The notes beneath the pieces were generated by a model that was not told the DNA's origin, searched no databases, and worked only from the letters and a program-made list of their open reading frames with translations. Positions 2,806 to 62,484 of a stretch of 64,000 nt of DNA are shown here, one piece after another (the stretch's first letter is position 1; every line of letters starts with the position of its first letter). The translations under genes and the position numbers were made by a program. Source of the stretch: an uncultured Collinsella sp. (GTDB lineage: Bacteria; Actinomycetota; Coriobacteriia; Coriobacteriales; Coriobacteriaceae). The DNA is taken from the NCBI GenBank assembly GCA_947507155.1, contig CANNOC010000009.1, positions 1 through 64,000 on the forward strand. Reading direction: 5' to 3'.

Positions 2806-3510
2806 CTACTCGTCTCCGTCGTTGGGGTCGCCCTTGAGGGTGTTGATGTCCAGGTACTGGTTGTCGTCCTCTTTTTGCTGCGTTGCCGATTCGGGCGCGG
2901 TGGGGCCACGGAACAGCTGGAATCCCTCAAACGCGATCACGCCGAGCAGAGCGATGATGATGGCGATAAAGACAACCTTTGCCGCTTGGGGAAACTCGGA
3001 GAAGTGCGGCGGCTCTTCCTCGGTGTAGTAGTCGGCAAAGCGCTCGTCATCGGTGCCACGGGTATACGACGATGCCGATGCGTCCTTTACGCCGGTCTTG
3101 TTGTACTCGGGAGCCGTGTATGCCGACTGCTGCGGGGCGTCGTAGCGAATCGTGTTGTCTGCCGTGGGGCGCTGTGCCGCTGCAGCGAGAAACGCCGCCG
3201 TCTCGGACGGATCGCTGGTGGGGTGGGGCGCAGGGGCGGCTTTACGCGTCGTCTGCACGATGGGACGGGTGGCAAAGTCGTCCGCGGGCACGGATGCCGG
3301 TGCGGGTGTGGCGGAAGGTGCGGGCTTTGCACTTGTCGGGCGAGCTCCGCCGCCCATGAGTTCATCGGCGGTCCAAGGGCGGTCGCTCATCACGTCGTCG
3401 AGGCTCAACGCAAACAGATCGTCTTCGCCCTCGTCAAACGCGTGTTTCGCATGCCTGGCGGTAGGCGCGGTGCCTCCGCGGCCGCTGCGCGATGCGTTGC
3501 TCGACCTCAT
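2806..3510 (-). CDS. Single-pass membrane protein of unknown function
   Basis: A 234-residue protein with AAAGGA upstream of its ATG. The first 165 residues are polar and low-complexity (rich in Ala, Pro, Thr, Asp), suggesting a disordered cytoplasmic region. One clear membrane segment follows (VVFIAIIIALLGVIAFEGFQ, near residues 178-197), then about 35 acidic residues, presumably outside the cell. There is no signal peptide, catalytic motif or family that I recognise. It sits between the ATPase (convergent) and the PAS regulator (same strand), with no sign of a shared operon. The long tail resembles actinobacterial envelope-associated anchors, but that is inference. Confidence 0.6.
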   Translation of the reverse strand: MRSSNASRSGRGGTAPTARHAKHAFDEGEDDLFALSLDDVMSDRPWTADELMGGGARPTSAKPAPSATPAPASVPADDFATRPIVQTTRKAAPAPHPTSDPSETAAFLAAAAQRPTADNTIRYDAPQQSAYTAPEYNKTGVKDASASSYTRGTDDERFADYYTEEEPPHFSEFPQAAKVVFIAIIIALLGVIAFEGFQLFRGPTAPESATQQKEDDNQYLDINTLKGDPNDGDE

Positions 3511-32600: not shown

Positions 32601-32663
32601 GTCTTGGTCGGAAACCAAGACGCCTTATGCGCTGATCGGTAACCAGCGCCTGACCAATAAGGA
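32601..32663 (+). promoter_or_regulatory. Structured rpmE (L31) mRNA leader
   Basis: Hairpin 1: GTCTTGGT (32601-32608) with ACCAAGAC (32614-32621). Hairpin 2: GCGCTG (32629-32634) with CAGCGC (32644-32649). Just before the ribosome site, GACCAA (32652-32657) can instead pair with TTGGTC (32604-32609) of hairpin 1, giving a competing fold. L31 leaders, I recall including a Coriobacteria type, have been described as ribosomal autoregulatory RNAs. Confidence 0.6.
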
Positions 32664-32671
32664 GTCCTACC

Positions 32672-55544: not shown

Positions 55545-55688
55545 ATGGCTGAGGAGAAGAAGACGTATAAGTTCGTGTGCATCGTTTGCGGTTATGAGGT
55601 TGAGGTCGACACGCCCGAGCTGCCCGAGGATTACGTGTGCCCGGTCTGCGGCGTCGGTCCCGATCAGTTTGAGCTCGTCGAGGAGTAA
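55545..55688 (+). CDS. Rubredoxin
   Basis: A 47-residue protein with GAGAGGAG upstream. It has the two iron-binding motifs, CIVCG (near residue 12) and CPVCG (near residue 32), and the typical [17 protein letters not shown] spacing. It carries one electron on an Fe(SCys)4 centre, likely taking electrons from the flavin reductase encoded upstream. It has its own promoter with a palindrome, so it can be induced separately. Confidence 0.94.
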
Positions 55689-55730: not shown

Positions 55731-55765
55731 GGGCCCCGGTCGGATATCCCGGCCGGGGTCCTTTT
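55731..55765 (+). terminator. Terminator after rubredoxin
   Basis: GGGCCCCGG (55731-55739) pairs with CCGGGGTCC (55753-55761), with G-T and mismatch positions, then TTTTG. Confidence 0.75.
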
Positions 55766-55795
55766 GATCCCTTGGGGACGGAGGAAAACGGATCA
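55765..55795. repeat. Family B, single arm
   Basis: A 31-nt unit that matches the left arm of copy B2 at 29 of 31 positions (core GGGGACGGAGGAAAACGG with TGATCC start and GGATCA end). No second arm follows, so it is a half-element. Confidence 0.8.
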
Positions 55796-55843
55796 CGGCT
55801 GCTGTTAGCCGATCCAGTCTGTCGTGAGTCCGGCCGACCTTTT

Positions 55844-55900
55844 GTCTCAATCTGTAACATCTAGCAGTGAAAACGGGGTCTATGTGTTACAGATTGAGAC
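55844..55900. repeat. Family D palindrome D1
   Basis: 16-nt perfect arms GTCTCAATCTGTAACA and TGTTACAGATTGAGAC; loop with GAAAACGGGG. Confidence 0.9.
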
Positions 55901-55924
55901 AAACGGAGCTGTCCCTCGGAATGA

Positions 55925-55980
55925 TCTTGATCTGTAACATCTAGACATCAAAAGCGTGTCTATCTGTTACAGATCAAGAC
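55925..55980. repeat. Family D palindrome D2
   Basis: 15-nt perfect arms TCTTGATCTGTAACA and TGTTACAGATCAAGA. It differs from D1 at two arm positions, each matched by the complementary change in the other arm. Confidence 0.9.
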
Positions 55981-56007
55981 GTTTGCCTGGGTAGGTGCTC
56001 CGCCCCA

Positions 56008-57264
56008 TTACATCCCCGTTAGCAGCACGACATCGAGAATCGTCACGATGGCACCGATCCCCACGAGCAACGCGTTGAGCGGGCGCGAGTTGGCGTATTT
56101 GCCCATGACGCGGGGCGAACTGGTGAGTCGTATGAGCACAAAGACCGTAATCGGCAGCTGAAGCGACAGCAGCGCCTGACTCCAAATGAGACCCTCAAAA
56201 GGATTCGGGACGACCAGGCACGCCGCCACTGCGCCGACGAAACAGGCCGCCACCCCGATCGAGGAATGTCGGTCGTGGATGTCGTATTCCTCGTCGAACA
56301 TGCCCGCGGTGATGGTGCCCGCCGCCATGCCCGCCGTCACGCTGCTCGATATGCCCGCAAACAGCAGTGCCACCGCAAAGATGATTGAGCTTGCCGGGCC
56401 CAGAATGGGGAAGAGCGTGGCCGCTGCGACGGCGAGGTCGTCTACGACAATGCCGTGCGCAAAGAAGGTCGTTGCGGCCAGGATGACCATGGCCGAGTTG
56501 ATTGCCCAGCCCACGCCCATCGAAAAGAGCGTGTCGAAGAGCTCGTAGCGCAGACGTTCTTCGATAACTCGCTCGCCTTGGCCTTCGAAGTGCATGGATT
56601 GGATGACTTCGGAGTGCAGGAAGAGGTTGTGGGGCATAACGACCGCGCCTAGGACGCTTACGATAATCGCGGCCGAGCCGGTGGGCATACTGGGTGTGAT
56701 CCAGCTTGTGGCGGCTTGCGGCCAGTCGACCTTGACTAGTGCAAGCTCGGCTAAAAACGAGAGTCCCACCACGCCCACGAAGGCGATGATCCATCGCTCG
56801 GCGCGTTTGTAGGAGCTTGTCATGAGCATGGCAATCGATGCCGCCGCGACGATGATGCAGCCGGCGCGCACGGGCAGGCCAAAGAGCATTTGAAGCGCGA
56901 TCGCACCGCCCAGGACTTCGGCCATGGCGGTGGCGATGGTCGCAAGATAGGCACTGGCGAGCACCGTGCGCCCAACGAAGCGGGGGAGGTAACGTGTCGT
57001 GGCCTCGGCAAGACAGGCGCCCGTGGCGATACCCAGGTGTGCAGCGTTGTGCTGCAGCACGATGAGCATGATCGTGGACAGCGTGACGATCCACAGCAGC
57101 GCGTAACCAAACTGCGAGCCCGCGGCCATATTGGAGGCCCAGTTGCCCGGGTCGATAAAGCCGACGGTCACGAGCAGTCCGGGGCCGATATGCCGTGCTA
57201 TGTCGAGTCCTCCGTGGCCACCGGTGCGCGGGGAGCCAAAGTGTTGTTTGAGATGGTTGATCAT
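56008..57264 (-). CDS. mntH: Nramp-family divalent metal transporter (MntH-like)
   Basis: A 418-residue membrane protein from the ATG at 57264 (AGGAGCG upstream; the frame is open 12 codons further). It has about eleven membrane segments. The metal-site motifs are present: GFIDPGNWASNMAAGSQFGY (DPGN, first helix) and VMPHNLFLHSEVIQS (MPHN, sixth helix). It imports Mn2+ or Fe2+ with protons. Family D palindromes lie on both sides of the gene (two after it, three before it). Upstream bases at 57310-57335 hold only a weak half of an MntR-like box. Confidence 0.92.
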   Translation of the reverse strand: MINHLKQHFGSPRTGGHGGLDIARHIGPGLLVTVGFIDPGNWASNMAAGSQFGYALLWIVTLSTIMLIVLQHNAAHLGIATGACLAEATTRYLPRFVGRTVLASAYLATIATAMAEVLGGAIALQMLFGLPVRAGCIIVAAASIAMLMTSSYKRAERWIIAFVGVVGLSFLAELALVKVDWPQAATSWITPSMPTGSAAIIVSVLGAVVMPHNLFLHSEVIQSMHFEGQGERVIEERLRYELFDTLFSMGVGWAINSAMVILAATTFFAHGIVVDDLAVAAATLFPILGPASSIIFAVALLFAGISSSVTAGMAAGTITAGMFDEEYDIHDRHSSIGVAACFVGAVAACLVVPNPFEGLIWSQALLSLQLPITVFVLIRLTSSPRVMGKYANSRPLNALLVGIGAIVTILDVVLLTGM

Positions 57265-57386
57265 GGTGCGCTCCTGCGTGCCGTTTGCTTGACGCCGCAA
57301 AGGATACCCGTTTTAGGCTCAAAAGTTAACCAAGACTGACAAAATTGCTGTATTTGAATAGGATGGTGAAAGGGGACTGCCGAAAT

Positions 57387-57443
57387 GTCTTGATCTGTAA
57401 CAACTAGGGATGGAAATTGGGCCTAGGTGTTACAGATCAAGAC
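57387..57443. repeat. Family D palindrome D3
   Basis: 16-nt perfect arms GTCTTGATCTGTAACA and TGTTACAGATCAAGAC, plus inner CTAGG/CCTAG pairing. The loop has GGAAATTGGG. Confidence 0.9.
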
Positions 57444-57467
57444 AGGAAGAAATGGTCCTATGGAATA

Positions 57468-57522
57468 TCTCGATCTGTAACAGCTGACCGCCAAAACCGG
57501 TCCTTCGTGTTACAGATTGAGA
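57468..57522. repeat. Family D palindrome D4
   Basis: Arms TCTCGATCTGTAACA and TGTTACAGATTGAGA. The only non-Watson-Crick position is a G-T pair, the midpoint between the D1/D5 (A-T) and D2/D3 (G-C) forms. Confidence 0.9.
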
Positions 57523-57544
57523 CATTCGGAACCGTCTCTCAAAA

Positions 57545-57605
57545 ACATCTCAATCTGTAACAGTTAGTCGTCGAAATTGGGTCTTCCTGTTACAGATTGA
57601 GATGT
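57545..57605. repeat. Family D palindrome D5
   Basis: 18-nt perfect arms ACATCTCAATCTGTAACA and TGTTACAGATTGAGATGT; the loop has CGAAATTGGG as in D3. Confidence 0.9.
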
Positions 57606-57786
57606 TTGAAGCGGTGAGCTTACGGGCCGAACCTGGGGCCCTTGTTGTCGCCCTTGAGGTCGGCGGTGTCCACTCGTAGGGCGCGCGTTACGCGATTGTT
57701 TCGAAACGGGCGGGAAACACAACGGGCCGGCGATGCTCCTAGTATGCCTATTCAACTGACTGTCTAATATCTAGGGGAGGATCGCG

Positions 57787-60700
57787 ATGCAGGCAGATTC
57801 CGCTCAGCAGCAGGGCCTTTATCGCCCCGAATTCGACCACGACGCATGTGGCATCGGCGCGCTTGCCGATATCAACGGTGAGCGCCATCACCAGATCCTG
57901 GACGACGCACTGTCCATTCTGGTCAACTTGGAGCACCGCGGCGGCACGGGACTCGAGAAGAACACCGGCGACGGCGCTGGCATCCTGTTCCAGGTTCCGC
58001 ATCACTTTTTCCGTAAAGAGGCTCAAAAGTGCGGCCAGATTCTGCCGGCAGAGGGCGACTATGGCGTGGCCATGTTGTTCTTTCCGCAGGACGACAAGGG
58101 CGTAGAGGATGCCCGCCGCGTGTTTGAGGAGGGCTGCGCCGAGGCCGGCGTGCCGCTGCTCTTTTGGCGCGAGGTGCCGGTCGACCCGCACGACCTGGGC
58201 GAGACGGCCCGCGCCTGCATGCCCACTATCCTGCAGGCCTTCCTGGGCCGTCCGGACGACACGCCCGCCGGCGATGCCTTCGAGCGCCGCCTGTACGTGT
58301 GCCGCCGCACCATCGAAAAGAAGGCCGACGCCGAGTTTGCCCTGCGCGACAAGATCTTCTACGTGTGCTCCATGAGCTCGCGCACCATCGTGTACAAGGG
58401 CATGCTGGTCGCCACGCAGATGCGCCGCTTCTTCATCGACCTCAACGACGCCGCCGTCAAGACGGCCGTGGCGCTCGTCCACTCGCGCTACTCCACCAAC
58501 ACCACGCCCAGCTGGGAGCGCGCGCACCCCAACCGCTTTATCATCCACAACGGCGAGATCAACACCCTCAAGGGCAACGTCAACTGGATTCGCGCCCGCG
58601 AACCCAACCTGTACAGCCCCGTGCTGCAGCACGATCTTGAGCGCGTGATGCCCATCATCAACCGCGAGGGCTCCGACTCCGCGATTCTGGACAATGTGCT
58701 TGAGTTTTTGGTCATGAACGGTCGTCCGCTCACGCGTGCCGCATCCATGCTGCTGCCCGAGCCGTGGGACCACAACGACAGCCTGAGTGAGGAGTGCCGC
58801 GCCTACGACGCTTACCAGTCCATGCTCATGGAGCCGTGGGATGGCCCGGCGGCCATCGCCTTTACCGACGGTCGCACGCTGGGTGCCGCCCTCGACCGTA
58901 ACGGCCTGCGTCCCGCCCGCTACTATGTGACGCGCGACGGTCGCTTTATGCTGGCGAGCGAGGTGGGCACCATCGAGGTGAGCCCCGAGAACATCCTGAC
59001 GAGCGGCTGCCTAGGACCGGGCCAGATGCTCGAGGTCGACTTTGCCCGCGGGCGCGTCATCTACAACGATGAGCTGCGTGCCCGTTACGCCAAGGAAAAG
59101 CCCTACCGTGATTGGATTGCCGAGGAGACGCTAACCGTTGACGCGCTCGATGAGCCCGTTGCGGCAACGCCCGCCGAGGACGCCGAGGTGCCCGCCGCCG
59201 TGCGTATGGCCAAGCTCGGCTACCACTGGGATGACGTCGACGAGGTCGTGCGTCCCATGGCCCAGCAGGGCAAGGCGCCGCTCGCCTCGATGGGCATCGA
59301 TGCGCCGCTGGCCTGCCTGTCCAAGAAGACGCGCTCGTTCTACGACTACTTCTATCAGCTGTTCGCCCAGGTCACGAACCCGCCGATCGACGCCCTGCGC
59401 GAGCATATGGTCACCTCGACCACGCTCTACCTGGGCAATCACGGCAACCTGCTCGAGGACTCCCGCGCGGCTTGCCAGCTGGTGCGCCTGGAGCGCCCGC
59501 TGCTGAGCGAGGAGGAGTTCGACCGCATTTGCGCGATTGACCGTGTTGGCTTTAAGACCCGCCGGTTCCGTGCCGTCTACCGCCGCGATGCCGGCGAGGG
59601 CGCGCTGCAGGCTGCGCTCAAGCAGCTTGCCGAAGACGTCGAGGCTGCGGTTCGCGATGGCGTGAACATCGTGGTGCTGAGCGATCGCGCCGGAGCGGGC
59701 GAGGTGCCCGTGCCGTCGCTGCTCGCCGTGGGCTGCGTGCACAACCACCTGATCCGTGCCGGCGTGCGCACCTTTGCCGATATCGTGGTGGAGTGCGGCG
59801 ACGCCGTGTCCCCGCACGACTTTGCGGCGCTGGTGGGCTACTCCGCAAGCGGCATCTATCCGTACAACGCGCATGCGTGCATCCGCGATCTGGCGGCACG
59901 CGGCGATCTGGACGTGACGGCCGAGCAGGGCATCGCCAATTACAACAAGGCCGCGACGGCGGGCATCGTCTCCATCATGTCCAAGATGGGCATCTCCACG
60001 GTGCAGAGCTACCATTCGGCGCAGATCTTCGAGGCCGTGGGCTTTACGCCCGAGTTCGTCAACGCGTACTTTGCCGGCACGGTGAGCCGTGTGGGCGGTA
60101 TGGGTGTCGAGGACGTCGAGCGCGAGCAGAACGAACGCTACGACGCCGCGCTCGCCATCCTTAAGAGCTCGGCTCCCGATCAGCTGCCCACACTGGGTCT
60201 GACTAAGTGGCGCCCGCTCGGCGGCGAGGATCACCTCATCGATCCGCAGACTGTCTACTTGCTGCAGACCGCCTGCCGTGAGGACAGCTACGACACCTTT
60301 AAGGAGTACAGCGCCCGCCTGCACCGCACCGGCCGTGCCGTGCGCCTGCGCGACCTGCTCGACTTTGATGCCAGCGGCCGCACCCCGGTTTCGCTCGACG
60401 AGGTGGAACCTGCGCTCAATATCGTCCGCCGCTTTAACACCGGCGCCATGTCGTATGGCTCCATCAGCAAAGAGGCGCACGAGTGCATGGCCATCGCCAT
60501 GAACCGCCTGCACGGTCGTTCCAACTCGGGCGAGGGCGGCGAGGATCCGCGTCGCGAGACCCCGCTGGCCAACGGTGACTCCAAGAATTCCGCCATCAAG
60601 CAGGTGGCAAGCGCGCGCTTTGGCGTGACGAGCCGCTACCTGTGCAGCGCCTTCGAGATTCAGATCAAGATGGCCCAGGGCGCCAAGCCCGGTGAGGGCG

Positions 60701-62484
60701 GTCACCTGCCCGGCAAGAAGGTCTACCCCTGGATTGCCGAGGTCCGTCAGTCCACGCCCGGCATCGGCCTGATTTCGCCTCCGCCGCACCACGACATCTA
60801 CTCCATCGAGGACCTGGCGGAGCTTATCTTCGATCTTAAGAACGCCAACCCCGGCGCGCGCGTGTCGGTCAAGCTGGTCAGCGAGGCCGGCGTCGGCACC
60901 ATCGCCACCGGCGTGGCCAAGGGCGCTGCCGACAAGATTTTGATCAGCGGCCACAATGGCGGCTCGGGTGCCGCTGCGCGCGACTCTATCTGGCACGCGG
61001 GTCTGCCGCTGGAGCTTGGCCTTGCCGAGGCCCAGCAGACGCTGCTGCAAAACGGTTTGCGCTCACGCGTGGTGCTCGAGGCCGATGGCAAGCTCATGGA
61101 CGGCACCGACGTCGCCGTCGCCTGCCTGCTGGGTGCCGAGGAGTTTGGCTTTGCGACCATGCCGCTCATCTCCATGGGCTGCCTCATGCAGCGCGACTGC
61201 CAGCAGGATACCTGCCCGGCCGGCATCGCTACGCAAAACTGCCGCCTGCGTCGCGGCTTCCGCGGCAAGCCAGAGCACGTCGAGCACTTTATGCTCTTTG
61301 TTGCCGAGCAGCTGCGCGAGGTCATGGCGAGCCTGGGCTTCCGCACCATCGATGAGATGGTCGGCCATCCCGAGTGCTTGCGCCAGATCGAGGTCCCGGG
61401 CAACCGCAAGGCCAACCTGCTCGATCTGTCGCCCGTGCTGGCGAGTGCGACCTGTGAGTTTGGTGCCCATATCCCGGGTGCCGACGGCCGTCACTTCCTG
61501 CCCCAGATGGCTGCGGACAGCGAGCTCGACAAGACGCTCGACTCCACGTTGTTTGTGCCCTATACGGCCGATGCCCGTGCGCACCTGCGTCCGATTCGCT
61601 TCCGCGCCGACATCGCCAACGTCAACCGCTGCGTGGGCACCATTTTGGGCAACGCGGTGACCAAGGCGCATCCCGAGGGCCTGCCCGCCGGCTCCATTAC
61701 CATCGATTGCGATGGTTCAGCCGGTCAGAGCTTTGGCGCGTTCCTTCCGCGTGGCATTACGCTCAACGTGTGCGGCGACGCCAACGACTACTTTGGCAAG
61801 GGCCTTTCGGGCGGCGAGGTGTCGGTGCGCCCCAACCCGCATGCGACCTATAAGTTCGACGAGAACATCATTGTGGGCAACGTTGCGTTCTTTGGCGCTA
61901 CGAGCGGCCGCGGCTTCATCAACGGTCTGGCCGGCCAGCGCTTTGGCGTACGCAACTCCGGTGCCACCGTGGTGGTCGAGGGCTGCGGCAACCATGGCTG
62001 CGAGTACATGACGGGCGGTCTGGCGCTCATCCTGGGCGAGGTCGGGCAGAACTTCGCCGCCGGTATGACGGGTGGCGTGGCTTATGTCTTTGACCAATAC
62101 GGCACGCTCGATGCCCGTGTGAACCACGAGAGCGTTGAGCTTAAAGCCCCGACGGCCGGCGAGCTGGCGCAGATTCGCGAGCTCATCCAGGAGCACGTGG
62201 ACGTGACGCAGAGCCCGCGCGGCATTAAGCTGCTCTACAGCTTTGAGACGATGAGCAAACACTTTGTGAAGGTCATTCCGACCGAGTACGAGCGCGTGCT
62301 GGCGATTGTCGCCGCCGCCGAGGCCGTCGGCAAGACGCATGCGCAGGCCGAGGAGCTGGCGTTTGACATTGTGACCGGTCGCGCGAGTGACGCGGATGTT
62401 GCTCGCTTCGATGTTGCGGGCGGTGCTGCGGGTGCTGCGTCCGTGGCTGCCAGCTCTGTTGCTTCGACCAAGAAGGAGGCGTAA
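57787..62484 (+). CDS. gltB: Glutamate synthase large subunit
   Basis: A 1565-residue protein with GGGGAGG upstream. A 21-residue leader is followed by Cys22 in FDHDACGIGALADI, the glutaminase nucleophile exposed after leader removal. GILFQVPHHFF and NGEINTLKGN belong to the glutaminase domain. The FMN/synthase domain has GAMSYGSISKEAHECMAIAM, SGHNGGSGAAARDSIWHAGL and iron-sulfur cysteines in CLMQRDCQQDTCPAG. The C-terminal beta-helix is glycine-rich (ATSGRGFINGLAGQRFGVRN). It makes two glutamates from glutamine and 2-oxoglutarate. gltD follows 5 nt later. Confidence 0.96.
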   Translation: MQADSAQQQGLYRPEFDHDACGIGALADINGERHHQILDDALSILVNLEHRGGTGLEKNTGDGAGILFQVPHHFFRKEAQKCGQILPAEGDYGVAMLFFPQDDKGVEDARRVFEEGCAEAGVPLLFWREVPVDPHDLGETARACMPTILQAFLGRPDDTPAGDAFERRLYVCRRTIEKKADAEFALRDKIFYVCSMSSRTIVYKGMLVATQMRRFFIDLNDAAVKTAVALVHSRYSTNTTPSWERAHPNRFIIHNGEINTLKGNVNWIRAREPNLYSPVLQHDLERVMPIINREGSDSAILDNVLEFLVMNGRPLTRAASMLLPEPWDHNDSLSEECRAYDAYQSMLMEPWDGPAAIAFTDGRTLGAALDRNGLRPARYYVTRDGRFMLASEVGTIEVSPENILTSGCLGPGQMLEVDFARGRVIYNDELRARYAKEKPYRDWIAEETLTVDALDEPVAATPAEDAEVPAAVRMAKLGYHWDDVDEVVRPMAQQGKAPLASMGIDAPLACLSKKTRSFYDYFYQLFAQVTNPPIDALREHMVTSTTLYLGNHGNLLEDSRAACQLVRLERPLLSEEEFDRICAIDRVGFKTRRFRAVYRRDAGEGALQAALKQLAEDVEAAVRDGVNIVVLSDRAGAGEVPVPSLLAVGCVHNHLIRAGVRTFADIVVECGDAVSPHDFAALVGYSASGIYPYNAHACIRDLAARGDLDVTAEQGIANYNKAATAGIVSIMSKMGISTVQSYHSAQIFEAVGFTPEFVNAYFAGTVSRVGGMGVEDVEREQNERYDAALAILKSSAPDQLPTLGLTKWRPLGGEDHLIDPQTVYLLQTACREDSYDTFKEYSARLHRTGRAVRLRDLLDFDASGRTPVSLDEVEPALNIVRRFNTGAMSYGSISKEAHECMAIAMNRLHGRSNSGEGGEDPRRETPLANGDSKNSAIKQVASARFGVTSRYLCSAFEIQIKMAQGAKPGEGGHLPGKKVYPWIAEVRQSTPGIGLISPPPHHDIYSIEDLAELIFDLKNANPGARVSVKLVSEAGVGTIATGVAKGAADKILISGHNGGSGAAARDSIWHAGLPLELGLAEAQQTLLQNGLRSRVVLEADGKLMDGTDVAVACLLGAEEFGFATMPLISMGCLMQRDCQQDTCPAGIATQNCRLRRGFRGKPEHVEHFMLFVAEQLREVMASLGFRTIDEMVGHPECLRQIEVPGNRKANLLDLSPVLASATCEFGAHIPGADGRHFLPQMAADSELDKTLDSTLFVPYTADARAHLRPIRFRADIANVNRCVGTILGNAVTKAHPEGLPAGSITIDCDGSAGQSFGAFLPRGITLNVCGDANDYFGKGLSGGEVSVRPNPHATYKFDENIIVGNVAFFGATSGRGFINGLAGQRFGVRNSGATVVVEGCGNHGCEYMTGGLALILGEVGQNFAAGMTGGVAYVFDQYGTLDARVNHESVELKAPTAGELAQIRELIQEHVDVTQSPRGIKLLYSFETMSKHFVKVIPTEYERVLAIVAAAEAVGKTHAQAEELAFDIVTGRASDADVARFDVAGGAAGAASVAASSVASTKKEA

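Follow-up and report, generated by a model that had tools for sequence, protein, structure and literature searches.

The Nramp gene of an uncultured Collinsella sp. is flanked by members of a clade-specific family of dispersed, intergenic, BIME-like arrays whose units have arms of their own. Our preferred reading, to which we give a probability of about 0.5, is that each unit is a putative protein-bound DNA dyad and that the arrays are probably architectural. A protein-bound dyad was proposed because the fit to REP and REPIN elements fails and because the fold of the palindrome is not preserved.

Five repeat units at the Nramp locus

The window, meaning the whole 64,000-nucleotide stretch of DNA that was analysed, belongs to contig 9 of a draft genome of 2.22 Mb, and genes were called by codon score. 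Five inverted-repeat units surround Nramp, where shuffled sequence is expected to hold none; all were located as the preliminary description had reported them, two at the 3' side of the gene and three at its 5' side. Array A consists of D1 (55840..55904, a 65-bp dyad according to the half-site logo; core 55850-55894) and D2 (55920..55984; core 55930-55974). Array B consists of D3 (57383..57447; core 57393-57437), D4 (57463..57527; core 57473-57517) and D5 (57543..57607; core 57553-57597). None of the five is assigned a strand.

Array A lies between a small rubredoxin-like gene (55545..55688, plus strand; the name is suggested by its CxxC pairs) and the 3' end of the Nramp/MntH metal transporter gene (56008..57264, minus strand), the two genes being convergent with the 3' end of the first towards the array. 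The rubredoxin-like gene has its own intrinsic terminator (55731..55766, plus strand) between its stop codon and array A, so array A is not the terminator of that gene. Array B lies between the start of Nramp and the divergent gene of a predicted glutamate synthase large subunit (57787..62484, plus strand).

Each of D1-D5 follows the plan ATCTGTAACA, then 25 nt, then TGTTACAGAT, and the step inside both arrays is 80 bp, a fixed step that the preliminary description did not contain. Its outer arm letters were read correctly (TCA/TGA in D1 and D5, TTG/CAA in D2 and D3, TCG/TGA in D4). The GAAA-x-x-GGG loop centre that it took to be kept throughout is present in D1, D3 and D5 and fails as a constant; constant are the 25-nt loop and an A/T triplet at its exact centre.

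The gene and its arrays had also been proposed to form a cassette, and this did not survive comparison with other genomes: arrays adjoin many unrelated genes, and Nramp remains where the downstream array is reduced to half a unit. Nramp is an ordinary neighbour of the arrays and lies outside the element. Its own neighbours vary between species, as the preliminary description had suggested checking. A gene of about 865 bp, phosphoglycerate mutase-like by its sequence, stands between Nramp and array B at eight loci (L042, L044-L046, L054, L057, L060 and L063) and is absent there in other species.

Close to array A, GATCCCTTGGGGACGGAGGAAAACGGATCACGG (window 55766-55798) has opposite orientations in different species, and at one locus (L052) both orientations stand left of the downstream array as a near-perfect palindrome of about 90 bp. 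It is a second palindromic element, unrelated to the arrays, that seems to collapse to either half.

Unit structure and spacing

Counting orthologs, we collected 501 units, and in 495 of them the 16-nt arm RTCTCRATCTGTAACA and its inverse are separated by 25 nt. The gap between cores of neighbouring units is 35 nt (194 cases) or 36 nt (103 cases) in 297 of 310, and successive units follow at a step of 80 or 81 bp. The half-site logo begins about 9 bp beyond the core arm and reads, towards the centre, WWT R TCT C R ATCTGTAACA n C TAG, followed by a GC-rich segment and the A/T centre. The flanks of the outermost arms carry little information past this edge, and the unit is therefore about 65 bp long, with the consensus WWTRTCTCRATCTGTAACAnCTAG...(A/T centre)...CTAGnTGTTACAGATYGAGAYAWW. 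The 16-nt arm contains no palindrome and lacks a fixed GTAG head, and loop orientation is mixed within arrays.

A/T content peaks at 0, 10, 21.5 and 30.5 bp from the dyad centre. The 10.0-bp harmonic was the strongest outside the arms (p = 0.04 and p = 0.007 in two simple permutations), with a period picked after looking at the data and shuffles that ignore local correlation; the phasing is weak and suggestive only.

Distribution among genomes

The exact core occurs 39 times in the window genome, compared with 0 for a reversed-pattern control. Allowing up to two mismatches per arm raised the count to 51 units in 20 arrays, all with a loop of 25 nt, and one more with a 26-nt loop. Two further arrays with worn arms were found on contigs 12 and 22, which brings the family to about 22 intergenic arrays, each of one to six units, with about 50 near-exact units in all. 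The preliminary description had named a genome-wide search that found only the five copies as a result that would count against it; the copies go far beyond five. Among the matches listed, every arm with at most one mismatch in the window genome belonged to an array or dyad, with no orphans.

Among the matches listed from public genomes, the pattern occurred only in Collinsella, mainly in C. aerofaciens and its close relatives. Across 45 Collinsella species, exact units numbered 17-44 in 24, a single one was present in 1 and none in 20; the 204 other genomes of the order held no exact unit. A covariance model recovered single units in four outgroup species. In three of these (G039, G018 and G038) the unit sits within sequence that shares 87-93% identity with C. 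aerofaciens (2.8, 0.37 and 0.28 kb, respectively); in the fourth (G031) a 1.75-kb stretch with 93% identity to C. aerofaciens lies about 4 kb from the unit. All four were probably carried in by transfer. We rejected these single copies as the ancestral source, given that three of the four stand in C. aerofaciens-like DNA. A similar-looking palindrome in a genome of a sister genus (G210, E = 0.006) was also rejected, as it is not a dispersed family. Among the papers searched, none was found to describe the repeat.

At one locus of another genome (L308, G040), two tandem operators resembling CTTCTCTGTAACA-nnn-GTTACAGAGAAG lie mid-locus upstream of a small helix-turn-helix gene. These sites and the arms have CTGTAACA in common (E = 0.6), perhaps by chance. 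Sampling of GC skew in a further genome (G002) placed the origin at about 1.9 Mb and the terminus at about 0.6 Mb, and none of its exact units, which are too few to relate the arrays to the replication arms, fell within 468-1050 kb.

Genomic context of the arrays

All 20 arrays of the window genome lie between genes: 7 are between convergent genes, 9 between tandem genes and 3, including array B, between divergent genes, and 1 is at a contig end. A gene 3' end points towards the array in 16 of the 19 arrays for which both neighbours are known. At 12 of the 22 gene ends that face arrays, an intrinsic terminator stands between the stop codon and the array, and the arrays are therefore not the terminators there.

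The neighbouring genes include those for ClpB, 6-phospho-beta-glucosidase, 6-phospho-beta-galactosidase, bilirubin reductase, type III pantothenate kinase, a copper ATPase, Dxs, ThiD, a pseudouridine synthase, release factor 3, a PTS transporter and MntH; neither a shared pathway nor a recombinase was seen among the flanking genes examined. A gene for the long form of bilirubin reductase (L023, 2805-4832) lies next to the window genome's array of six units. The one viral contig (L177) carries a prophage with a gene that is integrase-like by its sequence (1162-2289). This prophage is joined next to an array, close to the 3' end of thiD, and the arrays were rejected as its target site because the junction lies past the array and not within it.

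Pairing and covariation of the arms

The preliminary description had proposed that paired changes in the arms imply a maintained folded form. If so, the units might act as RNA hairpins, that is, as stabilisers of mRNA 3' ends, attenuators or small RNAs, and their 16-bp stems and their position near gene ends are in keeping with this. Among the 51 genomic copies, 94.0% of arm positions were paired compared with 93.7 ± 0.3% after shuffling, and two-sided changes occupied 24 cells compared with 16 ± 7 in shuffles. The most variable arm pair was AT in 16 copies, GC in 15, GT in 10 and AC in 9. The RNAalifold covariation term was about zero (-0.06), and pairing within the loop was lower than in shuffles. 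Helix covariation of the kind expected of a structured RNA is thus not seen in these copies.

Across 48 ortholog groups we counted 203 one-sided variant types (55 Watson-Crick, 59 G.T, 60 A.C and 29 other), so that 148 of 203 leave no Watson-Crick pair. The 28 two-sided types include 15 that are Watson-Crick, or 15 of all 231 variant types; such changes can also be produced by templated quasi-palindrome correction. Changes that break pairing as often as they keep it had been set out beforehand as a result that would refute a maintained fold, and the ortholog variants show this result: one-sided changes far outnumber two-sided ones and mostly leave no Watson-Crick pair.

As the orientation of the groups is arbitrary, the equality of G.T and A.C among ortholog variants is uninformative by itself. 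When strand was taken into account, the arrays of the window genome had 34 G.T and 34 A.C overall; mismatches of one type clustered within arrays (p = 0.014), and in tandem arrays the sense strand carried 18 mismatches of the G.U type and 10 of the A.C type. This bias and clustering are a weak hint of pairing at the RNA level, explicable by the common ancestry of arms within an array.

Some double changes do occur: D2 reads TTG/CAA in the window genome and TCG/CGA in relatives, and both D2 and D3 differ on both sides from some relatives. Compensation is nevertheless not the rule, and since the larger sample shows no excess of pairing, the pattern in D1-D5 is a small-sample impression that includes a few true double changes. 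It serves as a warning that compensatory changes suggested by five copies can vanish with fifty. RNA hairpins are accordingly improbable in our judgement: the two-sided Watson-Crick changes and the 18:10 wobble bias speak for them, and against them stand the pairing results above, the position of arrays past terminators at 12 of 22 gene ends and an Rfam scan of the window in which no family matched the arrays.

Array turnover and mobility

Counted with the detection applied here, the Nramp locus of about 24 species holds 1-3 units in the upstream array and 0-4 in the downstream one, and the step is 80 bp throughout. Half-loop recombinants accompany these changes in whole-unit number. Several single-unit arrays (L041, L046 and L058) consist of the left half of D3 fused to the right half of D5, as expected from recombination between repeats, and a lost downstream array leaves half a unit.

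One exact inversion was found in 191 arrays: the loop of D2 is inverted in place in G012 (L051), with its flanks unchanged. This would be the product of a site-specific recombinase if the inverted arms were its crossover sites, a reading under which the loop would invert and units would be excised, and which would also cover the mixed loop orientation within arrays and the gain and loss of units by 80 bp. However, loops otherwise keep their orientation within ortholog groups, both the inversion and the unit changes are explained by homologous recombination or template switching, and no recombinase is encoded by the flanking genes examined. We regard recombination sites as very unlikely.

The 191 arrays fall into 22 groups by flank homology, only three of them with one member, and the spread of the family is therefore mostly old. 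At a tRNA-Ser locus, the window genome (G000) has one unit inside about 141 bp, and three relatives (G033, G034 and G036) have an empty site beside the same neighbouring gene; this polymorphism reflects either an insertion in the window genome or a loss in the three relatives. In this region (L020, 3139-3229 and upstream), the neighbours of the tRNA-Ser(GCT) gene vary between Collinsella species, like those of an integration or exchange hotspot. The suggestion that the palindrome multiplies is borne out by the roughly 50 copies in about 22 places, the empty site and the differences in unit number between species, in so far as it is or was able to do so.

A selfish miniature element, REPIN- or MITE-like, would explain the copy number and the empty tRNA-Ser site: a transposase acting in trans would recognise the dyad, and conservation of the arms would reflect that recognition and not a benefit to the host. 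The units resemble REPINs in being extragenic inverted doublets in which a short sequence is conserved and the spacer less so (PMC3116915), and 39 of the 45 Collinsella genomes have HUH (Y1_Tnp) transposases. RAYT genes are described as always flanked by their REPs (PMC2817692), whereas the Y1_Tnp genes examined (L016-L019 and L178-L207) had no arm pair within 1.5 kb, nor did the two in the window genome have one within 3 kb. Y1_Tnp is found in array-free species too, and we rejected Y1_Tnp/RAYT as the partner. Array positions are mostly fixed, and the four outgroup genomes with a single array show no multiplication. By the tests made, the arrays are not REP or REPIN elements, because the arm is no hairpin of its own and has no GTAG or GTGG head, no Y1_Tnp gene examined is accompanied by arms, and the substitutions do not preserve the palindrome. 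A selfish element is, on balance, unlikely.

One Y1_Tnp gene has a AACCTGCCAAAAAGGGACAGGTTTATTTTGGCAGGTTTTATCTG repeat on both sides (L016, about 160-200, 930-970 and 2175-2215), which may be that gene's own REP/TIR family. The repeat recurs at L029, beside an array at 3280.

Constraint on the arms and comparison with other repeats

Divergence between orthologs was 0.024 in the arm core, 0.13 in the loop and 0.32 in the outer flank, measured on units detected by their arms (at most two mismatches per arm) and grouped by loop similarity, which favours low arm divergence; this bias affects the figures somewhat, but the contrast between arm and flank is still large. The arm cores are 13-fold less divergent than the flanks, and the arm sequence itself is therefore constrained. 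Change between orthologs is rare at several arm positions and at the central A/T, whereas loop and spacer letters drift. Loops are nevertheless conserved between orthologous arrays, an observation that bears on a comparison with TIGR or CRISPR-like guide arrays, which would have guide-like spacers and a cognate effector gene. Selection for sequence recognition would be expected to leave short constrained arms amid surroundings that drift on either side.

MITEs and the dRS3/NIME repeats of Neisseria also place inverted repeats around short variable spacers and form mosaic intergenic arrays; here, in contrast, no full-length parent element was found and the spacer length is constant. The GTAG/CGTC-tagged palindromes and TIR families of TIRYT transposases are likewise dispersed palindromic repeats, known from several phyla (PMC3733652), but the units have no end tag motif, and no arm-flanked transposase was seen in the loci examined. 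The closest likeness is to BIMEs, in regular spacing (here gaps of 35 or 36 nt and loops of 25 nt), alternating orientation, intergenic location, variable unit number and occurrence among unrelated genes (PMC2817692). BIMEs, however, are built of REPs, each its own hairpin with a GTAG-type head, whereas here the arm is not palindromic, the two-arm dyad is the unit, loop length is set at 25 nt and units recur with a period of 80-81 bp. BIMEs are also bound by gyrase, IHF or DNA polymerase I, for which the arrays offer only the indirect 10-bp A/T phasing.

Under our preferred reading of a protein-bound dyad, a putative sequence-specific protein would recognise the arms in double-stranded DNA and assemble with fixed geometry on the repeated dyads. 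No candidate gene for it was found. It might bend or wrap the DNA, in which A/T steps are spaced by about 10 bp. In that case the arrays would serve at gene ends as nucleoprotein or topological boundaries, the role suggested for the gyrase-binding BIME-2 of E. coli; BIME-2 is a gyrase site, and the gyrase motif has a phasing of GC content of about 10.75 bp (PMC6379681). The arrays may have spread in an ancestor of the clade through a putative mobilising activity and would now be mostly inherited in place. The three arrays between divergent genes, array B among them, do not stand at gene ends and count against this reading.

More tentatively, the roughly 50 dyads per genome could form a lineage-specific chromosome-organising system, in which a putative sequence-specific architectural protein would wrap or bridge phased 80-bp arrays at gene ends; such a system would be a counterpart, in Coriobacteriia, of the BIME-2/gyrase boundaries and independent of REP. 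The family is a compact system of repeats, found in an actinobacterium that is among the commonest of the human gut. Its strict geometry points to a defined nucleoprotein complex, and it provides a second, unrelated system for studying the function and spread of BIME-like arrays. The variable unit number and loop sequences are possible strain markers. Elsewhere in the window, the sole non-tRNA Rfam match is an L31-Coriobacteria ribosomal protein leader (RF03128) at 32629-32664.
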